Source: a virus. Taken from it: a DNA stretch of 20,074 bases. The notes beneath the pieces are model-generated. The model worked only from the letters and a program-made list of their open reading frames with translations. It made no database searches and had not been told where the DNA came from. Below are positions 10,706-20,074 of the stretch, one piece after another (the first letter of the stretch is position 1; each line of letters starts with the position of its first letter). The stretch spans positions 1 to 20,074 of the IMG/VR virus record IMGVR_UViG_3300006754_000264; one strand, 5' to 3'. The position numbers and the translations under genes are program-made.

Positions 10706-11640
10706 TGCTTTTAGAAATAGAGAACCAGCTACATACGAGAGTACATAGCACTATAGGACAGAGCGCTGTAGTCTTGAGACTAGCCGAAGAGCTAGATCAA
10801 TCTGGTCGAGTTGCAGAACAGGCCATGATTATTGTTAGCTATGTCTCTGGTTCATCAACTAACGAGATGGGCGGTGGAGCTTATATACCCACAATCAGGA
10901 CAAGGAAGATGACATACAGCGTCACTCTTGTTCAGAAGCAGACCCAAAGAGAGGGGCATAGTTTTTCTCTGCCTATCTTAGACCTAATCGCCGATGCCGT
11001 GACAGGATGGGTACCAGAAGTACCAGGAGTAGAATTTGCTACAGGATTTGAGCTAGATAGCGAGAGATTTGTTCAAGTCACAGAAGCATCACAATTTATA
11101 TATGAACAAAATTATTCTGTTAATGTCTCTATATCTGATGGTAGATTTTATACCCAACCTTGTGCCGCTTTTGATCCTATCTCTATTGTCGATTTCTTAC
11201 CCACGAGAAAATGCTTACAGACCCAAAACGGAGAACCCACTGGTCTAGCAGTATGGTCTAGAGTTACTGGCCCAGAAACAACAGAAAGCTATATTGTAGA
11301 AGATGCAAAAGCCTGTAATTGTCCTAAATCAACAAGCTTAGAGCTCACTTGTGGAGATGCAGAAGACGGGTCAGGGACTTACAAGTTCACTCCTCGTGAT
11401 GCTAGAAAGATCGCCGCAGACGGATCTTTTGTTATAGACAACTCTAAGGTGGTACAAGGAACTCTTCAAAGAGTGTGGAAATGTGATAAATCAAACAAAG
11501 GCAAGTATCCGCCATGGTTCAAGCTCAATATAGACTTTGCTCTTTGGAGAAATGACGTAGGACGTCTAGGGGCCGAGGATGAGAATTCTGCTCAGACTCT
11601 TAATTTCAAGACCGATGATGCATTGGATCTAGACTGCTAA
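10705..11640 (+). CDS. Tail terminator/tail completion protein, Mu gp37-like, 311 aa
   Basis: The first 155 residues look like Mu gp37-type tail completion proteins: an N-terminal amphipathic helix (LLEIENQLHTRVHSTIG), a core strand pair with 'IIVSYVSGSS', an 'RTRKMTYSVTLVQKQTQREGHSFSLPILDLIADAVTGWVP' segment, and a terminal strand 'IYEQNYSVNVSI'. Such proteins cap the sheath and tube and join tail to head. Family members are about 150-190 aa. Here about 150 residues are added, containing a cysteine cluster (CNCPKSTSLELTC, about 199-211) and further Cys residues, perhaps a metal-binding or disulfide-linked domain. It is coupled to the preceding gene (TAATG), and its TAA overlaps the TAG of the converging minus-strand gene. 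Confidence 0.65.
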   Translation: MLLEIENQLHTRVHSTIGQSAVVLRLAEELDQSGRVAEQAMIIVSYVSGSSTNEMGGGAYIPTIRTRKMTYSVTLVQKQTQREGHSFSLPILDLIADAVTGWVPEVPGVEFATGFELDSERFVQVTEASQFIYEQNYSVNVSISDGRFYTQPCAAFDPISIVDFLPTRKCLQTQNGEPTGLAVWSRVTGPETTESYIVEDAKACNCPKSTSLELTCGDAEDGSGTYKFTPRDARKIAADGSFVIDNSKVVQGTLQRVWKCDKSNKGKYPPWFKLNIDFALWRNDVGRLGAEDENSAQTLNFKTDDALDLDC

Positions 11641-11954
11641 GCTCTAATAAATAGCATCCTATCTCTATGAATATTTCTTTTAAGGGTATTTAGAGTTATG
11701 CATCTGTGACCTGCATTAAGAGTCATACCAGCTTTCTTAGGATACTTTGTAGTAAGGTCTCCATTGGCTTTCAATAGAGCAAACTCGGTGCTAACGAGCC
11801 CCACCCAATACTGAGGCTTTTTGCCTGCCATTAAGTAAGGCTCTTCTTGCATGAAAAGAGAGAGCCCGTACTTCGTTTCGAAGTAGGTATTTATTTCTTC
11901 AAAGCTTGTTAAAGACGGGGATGAGGTCTTTGATTGTAATTGAGTTTCCATCAT
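11637..11954 (-). CDS. Hypothetical protein downstream of the DNA polymerase, 105 aa
   Basis: The frame is open further upstream (to 12104), but that part lies inside the polymerase gene in another frame and reads as non-protein-like. The likely start is the ATG at 11954, or the adjacent one at 11951, giving 105 or 104 aa with a 56-nt overlap with the polymerase end. The protein contains EEINTYFETKYGLSLFM and PQYWVGLVSTEFALLK, and a basic C-terminus. I do not recognise a family. It is the last gene of the minus-strand polymerase transcript and its stop overlaps the stop of the converging tail gene at 11637-11640, so the two blocks meet with no spacer and no visible terminator. Confidence 0.65.
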   Translation of the reverse strand: MMETQLQSKTSSPSLTSFEEINTYFETKYGLSLFMQEEPYLMAGKKPQYWVGLVSTEFALLKANGDLTTKYPKKAGMTLNAGHRCITLNTLKRNIHRDRMLFIRA

Positions 11955-14583
11955 TTTCTTTTTTCTGTTGGGATACTGTGTTAGTACTAGCGTCTGCAGC
12001 TTTGCGGAAGATATGATCAATCTCGATAGATGAGAGCCATGCGTTTGCCACGGGAAGTTCATAGATCCCATAGTTATATCGCATCCAAGCCCAGCACCAG
12101 GCATGAGCGACCTGGAATAAAGCTGCTAAAGTCTCTGCTTCTTCCTTTGGACACATATACAGAATACTATCATGGACTGACATATTAAACTTAGCATTGA
12201 GTCTGTGGTCTTTAATGAGCCATTCCATGGCGGCCATAAATGCATGAAGCATTGCGCTACCCGTGGACTGAATACACCAGTTATTCCTCATTGTCCAGAA
12301 GTCGTCGCCAACCGAGGATGGACGGAAGGCAGTTGACATTTTTGTGCCACTTAGAGGGTTAATAGGTGTTTTTTCACAGGCAATCCGGGCCATCTCATTA
12401 TAGGCATATGAGTCAGATCCGCCGATAAGTTCTCTCATTCCTCGATATGCCTTACGTCCTTTCTTAATCTCAATAAGCTTCTTACCCATGTCCACAGCTT
12501 GTTTCATAGGGATGGACTTATTGCCTTTACGGATAGTGTTGGCCAGAGTCTTTGCTCCGCAGCCATAAAGCATCCCGTAGTTACATCCCTTAGCAACTGC
12601 TCTAGAGATCCCGATAGCTCCAGCAGTCATCGAGTGCATGTCTGTTCCGTTGTCTTTTGATCCTGCGAGGATAGCATGAGAGAACTGAGTTGACCCGGCC
12701 ACTTGGTGATAGGAATCAGCAAAGATGGAAGCAACAACAGCTTCTTGGGCGTCAAAATCTGATTCAACAAATACCCAACCGTCAGGAGCTTGTACTCGGG
12801 TTTTGATCTCGGATCCAATTTTGTCATACTTTGGATCAGGAACTGTGAGCCAGAGATTTTCTCCAGCACGATTAGTAGAAGTATTGTGAGGGACTGTTGC
12901 TGGAACAATAAGATTGAATTCTTTACCGAGAGGATTTTTGACTTTAGCAACGTTTTGTTCACGGACTCGGCTTCTAACCGAGGTCCAATAAGATACGTTG
13001 ATAGCTAGTTTGATAAGCTCTTTTGCTTGAGGTAGATCCGAGCTAAGCATTCCAGACTCGAAATCGGCATTGTAATCTTTAGAGAGTACTCCACCTACAT
13101 TCTCTCCTTCGCCTTTAGGGTGGGGGACTCGGATATATTCTCCGAGGTCTTCGTTTATGAAGCACCAGCCACGATCAGTGAAATAAGTCATAGGCTTATC
13201 ATCCCACTTAAGACGAAGCAAGAAGTGGGATAGACGATTCTTAGTAGAGATACCACCGATGACGAGTTTGTTTCCTTCCTCTGTCTTTACGATCTCAGAA
13301 ACACTCCTCAACCACTTAGGGATCCCGTACCACTTAGAAGAAGGCTTTCCGGCTTTTGTGAGTTTGAAGTTGCACTCCCAGTCCATCTGAGATAGCCAAG
13401 GATCCGACTCTACGTCAATATCTCCTTGGTTCCAGGCATCATAGATCTCTTGAGCCATCTCTCCTAAGATCTCTTCTTGTCTAGCGATAGAGTTACGCCA
13501 GATCTCTTCACAACCTTCAAACCACTCACCCCAATCGTCTACGACTGGAAGGAACGCAGATGAGATTCCGAAGTGACCAAGCAGAGTAGTCAGAGAAGGA
13601 TTGTTTTGAAGATACTTAAGGATGACAATAGAGAAAAGCTCTTGAGTGATCTCAGCGTCTTTCAGTGCATATTGAGTTAGGTCCTTTCGAAGTTCACATA
13701 TCTGTTCCATAGTCTCGCTGACCACGAACACGTCTCGGATCTTCTTATCCTCTGGTTGCAGAGGGATCATAGGTCGGCAGTGGAAGTTATAACAATCTAC
13801 TAGTCCGTTAAGAGATCCTTTCTCGGCCCAGATAGGGTCGGCTTTATAACTAGATTTCTTAGCGGCTTTCTGTACGTACCACCATCGCTGGCCAGAAGCT
13901 AGTCCACTCACATTAATGTGGGCAGACATGGTATCAAACCAATAGTTTCTCTTAGTGATGTCGTATGATTCAGAACAACGAGCTCTATCATAAGCAACGT
14001 TATGAGCAATAAAAATCTTATCATCACCTACGGGTACGAGGGTCGTGTAATACTCAATAGAAGGATCTACGTAGCACTCATGCATCCAGATATAATAAGC
14101 AGTATCAGTAACTGCTGTGGCCAGGATAGGATGAGAGAAGTCTGATCCTTTAACAAAAGTCTCGCAGTCAAATACAGCGATACTTTCTTCGATCTCTCCT
14201 GGATGAGTAGTCTTAAATCCTGTCTTGGTTGGAGTATACTTGGTCCATCCCGGCGTGTTAACGATATATTCTGTACCAGGCTTTTTAGGTAGCTCGGAAT
14301 AAGCAAAATCTTTCATGATCTTGATTTGGTCCGATACAAGCAACTTAGAGATGTTCTCGAAGTGTTCTTTAATATTCTTTCCTTTCAGCTCCGGTAGTTT
14401 GAAGTCTTCCATGAAGAAAGCCTTAGGGTTCTCGATAGGGAACGTAACTCCGAAGTTTTCCATCGAAGCCTTGATGCTTTTAATAGTTTCAGGTCTTACA
14501 GGAGATGGCTCGCAATCTCCGAACACCTGTTGGTTCATCCCATCTGAAAGAGTGGCGTAACCCAGGACATTAAGTTTGGACAT
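11899..14583 (-). CDS. Family-A DNA polymerase, mitochondrial polymerase gamma-like, 894 aa
   Basis: The replicative polymerase with 3'-5' proofreading exonuclease. Numbering starts from the TTG at 14589. I prefer the ATG at 14583, which removes two residues. Exonuclease motifs: Exo I VFDCETF (D141, E143), Exo II AHNVAYDRAR (N197, D201), then TMSAHINVSGLASGQR, and Exo III YALKDAE (Y307, D311). Polymerase motifs: A ESDFDAQE (D611), B ISRAVAKGCNYGMLYG (R663, K667, Y671, Y675) and C SVHDSI (H806, D807). Remembered human POLG matches these closely: GHNVSFDRAH, TMSMHMAISGL, ADVDSQE, GISREHAKIFNYGRIYG, and the four O-helix residues R943, K947, Y951, Y955 are kept. The motif-C Glu (HDE) is Ser here. 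It is led by a consensus promoter at 14604-14632. Confidence 0.95.
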   Translation of the reverse strand: MSKLNVLGYATLSDGMNQQVFGDCEPSPVRPETIKSIKASMENFGVTFPIENPKAFFMEDFKLPELKGKNIKEHFENISKLLVSDQIKIMKDFAYSELPKKPGTEYIVNTPGWTKYTPTKTGFKTTHPGEIEESIAVFDCETFVKGSDFSHPILATAVTDTAYYIWMHECYVDPSIEYYTTLVPVGDDKIFIAHNVAYDRARCSESYDITKRNYWFDTMSAHINVSGLASGQRWWYVQKAAKKSSYKADPIWAEKGSLNGLVDCYNFHCRPMIPLQPEDKKIRDVFVVSETMEQICELRKDLTQYALKDAEITQELFSIVILKYLQNNPSLTTLLGHFGISSAFLPVVDDWGEWFEGCEEIWRNSIARQEEILGEMAQEIYDAWNQGDIDVESDPWLSQMDWECNFKLTKAGKPSSKWYGIPKWLRSVSEIVKTEEGNKLVIGGISTKNRLSHFLLRLKWDDKPMTYFTDRGWCFINEDLGEYIRVPHPKGEGENVGGVLSKDYNADFESGMLSSDLPQAKELIKLAINVSYWTSVRSRVREQNVAKVKNPLGKEFNLIVPATVPHNTSTNRAGENLWLTVPDPKYDKIGSEIKTRVQAPDGWVFVESDFDAQEAVVASIFADSYHQVAGSTQFSHAILAGSKDNGTDMHSMTAGAIGISRAVAKGCNYGMLYGCGAKTLANTIRKGNKSIPMKQAVDMGKKLIEIKKGRKAYRGMRELIGGSDSYAYNEMARIACEKTPINPLSGTKMSTAFRPSSVGDDFWTMRNNWCIQSTGSAMLHAFMAAMEWLIKDHRLNAKFNMSVHDSILYMCPKEEAETLAALFQVAHAWCWAWMRYNYGIYELPVANAWLSSIEIDHIFRKAADASTNTVSQQKKENDGNSITIKDLIPVFNKL

Positions 14584-14603
14584 AAACAAGGGCGGTTTTT
14601 ACT

Positions 14604-19028: not shown

Positions 19029-19053
19029 TAAAAAGGACAGCTTCACACTGTCC
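19029..19053 (-). terminator. Intrinsic terminator of the tmRNA gene
   Basis: Minus strand: GGACAG (19048-19053) pairs perfectly with CTGTCC (19035-19040) around a 7-nt loop, and TTTTTATTT follows (to about 19026). It separates the tmRNA from talC. Confidence 0.8.
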
Positions 19054-19054
19054 A

Positions 19055-19272
19055 GTAACATTTGGGTTATAAGGCTGTTATCACCCCATCTCCTATTAGG
19101 CAGTCACCAGTTGGCGAGTGCGGGAGAAAGATACGATGTTATTAGCATCTGTTTATTTGTTCCGTCAACAATCACAACCTTTTCGCCCTGTCGAGACCAT
19201 GGCACCCCCATGATGGAGGTGAGGGGAATCGAACCCCTGTCCAGAACAACAGAATTTGCAATCTCTTGAACA
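19055..19272 (-). ncRNA. ssrA: Permuted two-piece tmRNA
   Basis: A trans-translation RNA that rescues stalled ribosomes and tags the nascent peptide. It is circularly permuted: the acceptor piece comes first (about 19272-19214), then the coding piece (19209 to about 19055). The acceptor piece ends with a perfect T-arm, AGGGG/TTCGATT/CCCCT (19222-19238), then CACCTCC and A73 (19214). The coding piece starts GGGGGTG (19203-19209), pairs with CACCTCC over 7 bp with a G3-U70 pair (the AlaRS signal), and continues CCATGGTCTCGACAGGG, the tmRNA D-region signature. Only TCAT separates the pieces and CCA is not encoded. The tag reads ANNIVSFSRTRQLVTA (19146 to 19099), then TAA TAG, and resembles cyanobacterial tags beginning ANNIV. 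A hairpin with a mismatch lies at 19064-19086. Marine picocyanobacteria use permuted tmRNA. 5' and 3' ends are estimates. Confidence 0.9.
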
Positions 19273-19278
19273 TAGTAT

Positions 19279-19307
19279 ATAATATCAAATATCAGTCTTT
19301 TTGTCAA
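19279..19307 (-). promoter_or_regulatory. Sigma70 promoter for the tmRNA
   Basis: Minus strand: perfect TTGACA (19302-19307), 17-nt spacer, TATTAT (19279-19284, 5 of 6). The predicted start near 19272 gives an acceptor piece of about 59 nt. The -35 lies inside the last codons of the preceding gene. Confidence 0.8.
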
Positions 19308-19488
19308 CCAATTCGTCAATCTGATCCATCATACTGTCAAAATTTCCAATATTATCCAACTCAAAAATAATCTTAGAGATATTGTGACAAACTATAGGAC
19401 GTTCTTGTCGTGCTGCATATGCTAAAGCGTTCCTTAGATTTGATGAAGCCTCTTGAAGACTTTCATTAACTTGATTACCTAATGCCAT
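19285..19488 (-). CDS. Conserved cyanophage-type hypothetical protein, 67 aa
   Basis: A 67-aa helical protein starting MALGNQVNESLQEASSNLRN. This start, together with 'ALAYAARQERPIV', recalls a family of short unnamed proteins I have seen in T4-like cyanophages. The function is not known. It has one Cys and no membrane segment. An AGAGG lies about 10 nt before the ATG, within the last codons of the 71-aa gene upstream, so the two are probably translated from one mRNA. The tmRNA promoter -35 falls within its 3' end, so it is not part of the tmRNA transcript itself. Confidence 0.75.
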   Translation of the reverse strand: MALGNQVNESLQEASSNLRNALAYAARQERPIVCHNISKIIFELDNIGNFDSMMDQIDELVDKKTDI

Positions 19489-19494
19489 AATAGA

Positions 19495-19710
19495 TCAACC
19501 TCTACTAATTAAATGATTTACAATAATCTTAGACAATTCATCACGAATATTATCATCCTTGATTCCTATCTTGTCTGTTAAAAACCGATGAGTGGCTTTT
19601 TTATAAACAAGAGAAACTTCATCATAATATTCATTAACAATATATTCAGTAACATCACTTAAGAGAGCATCTGCTACTTTTTTTCTAGTCTTGTGATTAT
19701 TATTAAACAT
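19495..19710 (-). CDS. Hypothetical protein, 71 aa
   Basis: A 71-aa charged helical protein (MFNNNHKTRKKVADALLSDV at the start, DELSKIIVNHLISRG at the end) directly after tRNA-Asp, with 18 nt between. The AAGAGA a few bases before the ATG is a modest ribosome site. No family is recognised, and there is no membrane span or metal motif. It is probably transcribed with tRNA-Asp from the extended -10 promoter near 19824 and linked to the 67-aa gene that follows after 6 nt. Confidence 0.7.
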   Translation of the reverse strand: MFNNNHKTRKKVADALLSDVTEYIVNEYYDEVSLVYKKATHRFLTDKIGIKDDNIRDELSKIIVNHLISRG

Positions 19711-19832: not shown

Positions 19833-20074
19833 GATACTTCAACTTGTTTACGTATTCGTAGGCATAAACCTCACGGTTGCCTTTAATACCCCATCCCAAC
19901 CAACGATAAGCAGCATTCATATAGTAACTAACAGTCTGCCCACTACCTTCAAAATAAGGAAGTTGTGTCTGGAAGATATTCTCATTAATCATATAACGAG
20001 TCTGACCTTCTAGACTGCTTGGATCACAATCGTACTTTGCACAGAATTTACCTAAGTTATTATATCGACCTGCA
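19825..20074 (-). CDS. C-terminal part of a phage-tail-lysozyme-like protein (partial)
   Basis: An open frame enters from the right edge and ends at TAA 19825-19827, giving the last 82 residues. 'RYNNLGKFCAKYDCDPSSLE' followed by 'GQTRYMINENIF' resembles the middle of the phage tail lysozyme family (the 'L..FA...g....l..Q..f...E' pattern that follows the catalytic Glu). 'MNAAYRWLGWGIKGNREVYA' with the terminal helix resembles the end of the same domain. Such enzymes cut peptidoglycan during infection or lysis. The catalytic Glu would lie beyond the window, so the call is tentative. The stop codon overlaps the -10 of the tRNA-Asp promoter. Confidence 0.5.
   Translation of the reverse strand, partial: AGRYNNLGKFCAKYDCDPSSLEGQTRYMINENIFQTQLPYFEGSGQTVSYYMNAAYRWLGWGIKGNREVYAYEYVNKLKYLV

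Follow-up and report, generated by a model that had tools for sequence, protein, structure and literature searches.

The minus strand of the window, a 20-kb IMG/VR virus record of 20,074 nucleotides, carries a complete circularly permuted (two-piece) tmRNA of the cyanobacterial type at about 19036-19288. Comparison with related phage and host loci makes it likely that this gene encodes a functional tmRNA of a phage-specific lineage, which would free stalled ribosomes with the help of host SmpB and whose degron would have been attenuated or retargeted.

Identity and anatomy of the tmRNA gene

The Rfam model of cyanobacterial tmRNA (RF01851, cut-off 70 bits) aligned over its full length (model positions 1-288) to 19288-19036 on the minus strand with 139.3 bits and an E-value of 2.5e-38. 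The model of permuted tmRNA (RF04321, cut-off 47 bits), a check proposed in an earlier note on this DNA, scored strongly with 97.1 bits (E 3.9e-18). ARAGORN separately called tmRNA* c[19005,19303] with the tag ANNIVSFSRTRQLVTA, followed by the two stops TAA TAG. Both scores and the ARAGORN call bear out the earlier reading as a phage-encoded, circularly permuted, cyanobacterial-type tmRNA, and all the parts then named were recovered on the minus strand from the sequence, ARAGORN and Rfam, including a promoter in front and a terminator behind in consensus and terminator scans (Table 1). A one-piece tmRNA is ruled out by the gene order. The folding energy of the single sequence is weak (z -1.54) and not convincing alone; the case for a tmRNA rests on the model match and on covariation in relatives. 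Scores above both cut-offs, the permuted order with G3-U70, and a tag with resume codon, A at -4 and stop place the RNA in the permuted family. The tag ends in LVTA and not in the VAA of the host degron; membership stands despite this end, because it rests on structure and VAA is not a defining feature.

The promoter-like site was the best among nine in the region, where shuffled sequences gave a mean of 6.1 sites, and it overlaps the end of the upstream ORF. The best limits for the predicted transcript are about 19272, the inferred start, and about 19030. No CCA is encoded after the discriminator A19214, and cofolding of both pieces recovered the acceptor and T-arm pairs. The TCAT spacer between the pieces would be removed by tRNA-processing enzymes; it corresponds in position to the spacer that, in relatives, contains an entire tRNA gene. 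The window has a mini-hairpin where hosts have a longer hairpin, and the form GTTGACGG of this element is common to S-CAM1, S-CRM01 and locus L115.

Table 1. Features of the tmRNA locus in the window
Feature	Position	Strand	Basis
Predicted sigma-70-type promoter TTGACA-17-TATTAT, extended TG	19279..19307	-	Consensus scan, 11/12
Permuted tmRNA gene, model extent	19036..19288	-	RF01851 alignment
First (acceptor) piece, including helix P2 5' strand	19214..19263	-	RF04321 alignment
T-arm	19238-19222	-	Sequence, RF04321 alignment
Acceptor 3' strand CACCTCC	19221-19215	-	Sequence, RF04321 alignment
Discriminator A	19214	-	Sequence, RF04321 alignment
4-nt intervening segment TCAT	19210..19213	-	Sequence
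Acceptor 5' strand GGGGGTG, 7 pairs with 19221-19215 including G3-U70	19203..19209	-	Sequence
D-region GGTCTCGACAGGG, followed by A-rich stretch		-	Sequence
Mini-hairpin TTGTT-GACGG-AACAA	19157..19171	-	Sequence and fold
Resume-codon hairpin GATG-CTAATAA-CATC around resume codon GCT	19135..19149	-	Sequence; covarying arms in relatives
Tag reading frame ANNIVSFSRTRQLVTA, stops TAA TAG, A at -4 of resume codon	19093..19146	-	ARAGORN
Hairpin TCGCC-AACT-GGTGA, made by tag codons	19104..19117	-	Fold
Intrinsic terminator GGACAGTGTGAAGCTGTCC TTTTT, T tract	19030..19053	-	Terminator scan

Conservation of the rescue parts and the resume-codon hairpin

Pattern scans of IMG/VR together with phage records yielded 142 phage-side loci of the cyanobacterial permuted type, of which 85 were left once near-copies had been dropped, and a scan of bacterial genomes yielded 43 host loci, 37 after removal of near-copies. 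Of 205 loci from phages and hosts, 202 kept all 12 acceptor and T-stem pairs; the best-pairing anchor was picked per locus, which favours pairing, while the two-sided compensations are independent of that pick. Across 71 phage representatives, pair 5 of the acceptor occurred as GC (43), AT (19), CG (5) and TA (4) and pair 6 as TA (65) and CG (6), and pairs of the T-stem swapped likewise; the pairs that vary in phages are invariant in the 37 hosts. All 71 phage and all 37 host representatives had G-U at acceptor pair 3, and the discriminator A was present in each of the 71 phages. Equally constant was the base at -4 of the resume codon, an A in all 85 phage and all 37 host representatives; this position dominates the choice of the resume frame in Escherichia coli (PMC2481249). 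In the insert-bearing phages the alanine of the old ANNIV motif could serve as an alternative start of the tag, which is disfavoured by a C or T at -4 in 69/69 cases; the upstream codon is preferred. The kept pairs, the compensatory changes and the constancy of G3-U70 and of the A at -4 argue that tmRNA function is under selection.

A hairpin of at least 4 pairs with covarying arms encloses the resume codon in 81 of the 85 phage representatives versus two of the 37 host representatives, and appeared in about 14 of 85 when the downstream bases were shuffled. The phage hairpins have 4 or 5 pairs, with the first G of the resume codon in the closing pair. Their arms read AGATG/CATCT (44), ATCTG/CAGAT (16), GATG/CATC (9, the form of the window) and others, the first two representing a compensatory swap, and in most phages 7-8 extra codons complete the hairpin. 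For an inactive E. coli mutant, the suggested cause is a helix that involves the resume codon (PMC2481249). By analogy, the phage hairpin could impede translation of the tag, a point against the functional reading; alternatively, it may gate resumption or be simply opened on the ribosome.

A phage lineage apart from the host genes

The tree of phage and host tmRNA genes, built without the tag columns, contains a single branch with 100/100 support that parts host from phage genes. The window copy, which the earlier note had expected to trace to a picocyanobacterial host, falls inside a phage set of 26 rows, again with 100/100 support, and a quick tree likewise put it on the phage side. Forcing the window copy into the host clade cost 34.7 log-likelihood units, a placement that the AU test did not reject (p 0.159), so that its nesting within the phages rests on branch support. 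Within the host family, 260 of 300 genomes have a tmRNA above the cut-off, and the scores amount to about 295-336 bits for hosts where listed versus 74-163 bits for the phage genes scored. From these comparisons the phage tmRNA lineage is distinct and probably old. Direct capture from a present-day host is not indicated by the split, the position of the copy among phages and the bit scores; an old origin from the picocyanobacterial lineage is still likely. The tag of one locus in the collection, L407, resembles those of hosts, and its contig may come from a host.

Changes at the tag C-terminus

The host tags end in AA in 37/37 representatives and in 50/50 further host loci, mostly as APVAA. 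A strict APVAA pattern matched 212 of 300 host-family genomes, and the further 50 loci include 20 missed by it. The 85 non-redundant phage tags end in TA (30), AA (26), AV (11), TV (8), LV (3), LA (3), VA (2), AL (1) and PA (1), so 59 of them have a non-AA end and loss of the degron is not universal in the phage lineage. On the tree, about 15 switches between AA and non-AA ends were counted (14 in the quick tree) and the last two residues changed 26-27 times. Even close relatives differ, as with DELVTA in S-SSM7 and DELVAA in L037 and L060. At their last two positions, the 53 distinct phage tags use only A, T, V, L or P (106 residues, none charged), and many R, E, D and K occur at positions -7 to -3. 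Other permuted phage tags recovered in the same scans end in AA in 12 of 13 distinct cases, and the non-AA ending is thus not general to phages.

In Synechocystis, ssrA tags ending in LVA, AAV and ASV decrease in strength in this order (PMC3446811). What a lambda-P22 hybrid phage requires of tmRNA is the release of ribosomes, and not proteolysis (PMC2481249, PMC2862035). By analogy with these systems, our preferred reading is that the phage tag has kept a degron in an attenuated or retargeted form. The earlier suggestion that the phage RNA might replace host tagging therefore appears too simple, since the phage tags depart from the host tags exactly at the degron. In the part of the literature covered, we found no report of a tag or degron change in a phage lineage, nor of a hairpin added at the resume codon. 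Constant rescue parts beside a changing degron would allow a test of whether phages want ribosomes freed without host proteolysis, and the alternative tag endings are ready-made reporters.

tRNA genes nested between the tmRNA halves

The tmRNA halves are separated by a whole tRNA gene of the same strand, for Tyr(GTA) or Asn(GTT), in 21 phage loci from IMG/VR (L282, L283, L291, L300, L302, L329, L359, L365, L366, L367, L373, L375, L376, L385, L390, L392, L393, L396, L401, L404 and L406). The tmRNA halves still pair 12/12 in these loci, Rfam aligns the full tmRNA across the insert and ARAGORN detects the tRNA within it. Sequence differences among the nested genes suggest several origins, and the arrangement supports a real two-piece processing in these phages, for which it offers a natural test. 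No paper reporting a nested tRNA in a two-piece tmRNA was found by title or abstract in the literature covered, which was partial.

Proposed function and its alternatives

The sequence, structure, conservation and lineage of the gene are consistent with the following course of events. Transcription from its own promoter would yield a short RNA from about 19272 to 19030, which host tRNA-processing enzymes would cut at the 4-nt spacer. A host enzyme would add CCA, the two pieces would remain paired and the tRNA-like domain would be charged with alanine via G3-U70. Charged tmRNA and host SmpB would then enter ribosomes stalled on truncated mRNA; SmpB of the host must presumably serve here, as no SmpB gene was found in the eight related phage records searched. 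Addition of the tag ANNIVSFSRTRQLVTA would end at TAA TAG and free the ribosome. Selection in the phage lineage would have kept rescue and not the host degron, and with a VTA instead of a VAA end the tagged products would be degraded more slowly or differently. More tentatively, and with somewhat less than even probability, these RNAs may form a tmRNA class of the cyanophages' own, in which rescue is uncoupled from host-type proteolysis, the resume codon is gated by a hairpin and, in some members, a nested tRNA shares the processing.

The tag could also still act as a full degron, so that a working phage tmRNA supplements the host system in infected cells and lets the amino acids of aborted proteins be reused, its C-terminal changes being neutral or compensating RNA structure. 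The 26 tags that keep AA would fit such a role, as would the small, uncharged C-terminus, which appears to be still selected; moreover, the tag codons form a stem whose turnover could drive the changes at the end. We regard it as rather unlikely, given that AA is invariant in all host loci read, yet was repeatedly lost in phages, and that ASV-type ends are the weakest of the three tags in Synechocystis (PMC3446811).

The RNA could instead act as a decoy that ties up, for instance, SmpB or alanyl-tRNA synthetase and so blocks trans-translation in the host, its sequestered resume codon making it a poor template. Such a decoy would recall the RNA of phage DS6A, which has little beyond the tRNA-like domain and resembles a strong tmRNA inhibitor (PMC4131195; also PMC11915505). 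The resume-codon hairpin, missing in most hosts, would suit this role, but a decoy needs no tag, and the open tag, resume codon, A at -4 and stop are kept in 85/85 phage representatives, which makes it very improbable. Slighter still is the chance of a non-functional passenger, such as a captured host gene or the remnant of a site-specific integration. The patchy presence of the gene, absent from three S-TIM relatives searched, and the fact that tmRNA genes are common integration sites would agree with a passenger; its own promoter and terminator, and full pairing with compensatory changes across a diverged phage-only lineage, disfavour one. Moreover, what is present is a whole, permuted gene instead of a fragment, placed among phage genes in the order of S-TIM5 (virion gene, tRNA, talC). 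An integration-site remnant was rejected because the gene is whole and has a promoter and a terminator.

Relation to known tmRNAs

The picocyanobacterial ssrA genes (Prochlorococcus, Synechococcus and Cyanobium; RF01851) share with the window the permuted order, acceptor, T-arm, D-region, resume region and downstream stems as well as the ANNIV..FSR tag core. Their tags end in Q(A/T)APVAA, whereas that of the window ends in RQLVTA, and the window gene further differs by a reduced 5' leader hairpin, the mini-hairpin after the D-region, the resume-codon hairpin and the tandem stop. The tmRNAs of S-CAM1/S-CAM3, Sf-FS3, S-SSM7, S-CRM01 and AG-345-P14 belong to the same phage lineage and have the same structure as that of the window. 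Unlike the window gene, most of them carry the insert of 7-8 codons after the resume codon; they also have other tag ends (STVAA, ELATA, ELVTA, LVAAL), and their genomes are not S-TIM5-like.

Among phages more widely, mycobacteriophages such as Bxz1 and Wildcat and Bacillus phage G have tmRNAs of the standard one-piece form and not of the cyanobacterial permuted type. Like the window gene, these are phage-encoded (PMC4131195). A survey of 2014 found tmRNA among the RefSeq viruses only in mycobacteriophages, phage G and DS6A coming from outside that set (PMC4131195). Of the 18,146 phage genomes surveyed in 2022, 402 had a tmRNA. The two-piece form accounted for 53 structures, of which marine or aquatic phages contributed 50, and phages shared a branch with cyanobacterial tmRNAs (PMC9004378); the tmRNA database holds 79 bacteriophage sequences (PMC11915505). 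The window gene is therefore not the first of its kind: permuted tmRNA carried by phages had been described before, and the features of the phage lineage make the window gene a variant of it. The RNA is of the cyanobacterial type as had been noted, but permuted tmRNA is not confined to one cyanobacterial lineage and occurs also in alpha- and betaproteobacteria (PMC11915505). The Methylophilales phage Melnitz and pelagimyophages are marine phages that encode a permuted tmRNA like the window, though of the alphaproteobacterial type and reported with a glutamine riboswitch (PMC9004378); an Rfam search gave no riboswitch match in the window. No test of what phage tmRNAs do for the phage was found in the literature covered, which was partial.

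Genomic setting among cyanophages

The contig is a fragment of an Aurunvirus-like (S-TIM5-like) cyanophage. The Aurunvirus isolates S-TIM54, S-TIM61, S-TIM5 and S-TIM66 match 78-83% of the window at about 78% identity, and the window is collinear with S-TIM5. The gene order in S-TIM5 is virion gene, tRNA-Gly, small ORF, petE and talC; in the window it is a virion-gene homologue, tRNA-Asp, two small ORFs (phrog_3562 and phrog_1179), tmRNA and talC. These two ORFs (19285-19710) occupy the petE position of S-TIM5 between tRNA and talC. No tmRNA match was obtained in the whole genomes of S-TIM5, S-TIM54 and S-TIM61, so the gene is dispensable in the genus, which counts against the functional reading. 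In S-CAM1 the tmRNA likewise follows a homologue of the first gene of the window and precedes talC. Either the line of the window gained the tmRNA, perhaps through recombination between conserved flanking sequences, or the S-TIM line lost it.

Six more phage records scored above the cut-off, namely Sf-FS3 (143 bits), S-CAM1 (128), S-CAM3 (127), AG-345-P14 (120), S-SSM7 (109) and S-CRM01 (74). In GenBank records of tmRNA-bearing phages the gene is unannotated or overlaid by a 'hypothetical protein', for example SSSM7_025 and BOW87_gp053, which are probably spurious because the tmRNA occupies their place. The tmRNA loci concerned lie at 1985-2299 of L002 (S-CAM1), 1986-2204 of L005 (S-SSM7) and 2000-2140 of L007 (S-CAM3).

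The partial virion-gene homologue at 19880-20071 of the window is 95.8% identical in DNA over 192 bases to positions 845-1036 of contig L265, while the talC genes of the two are merely 78% identical, a contrast that points to a mosaic exchanged between cyanophages. Elsewhere in the window, a 155-aa ORF (11637-12104, minus strand) overlaps, in a different frame, the 3' end of the DNA polymerase reading frame (896 aa; 11899-14589, minus strand; phrog_22619); it could have arisen by chance or be a gene of its own.
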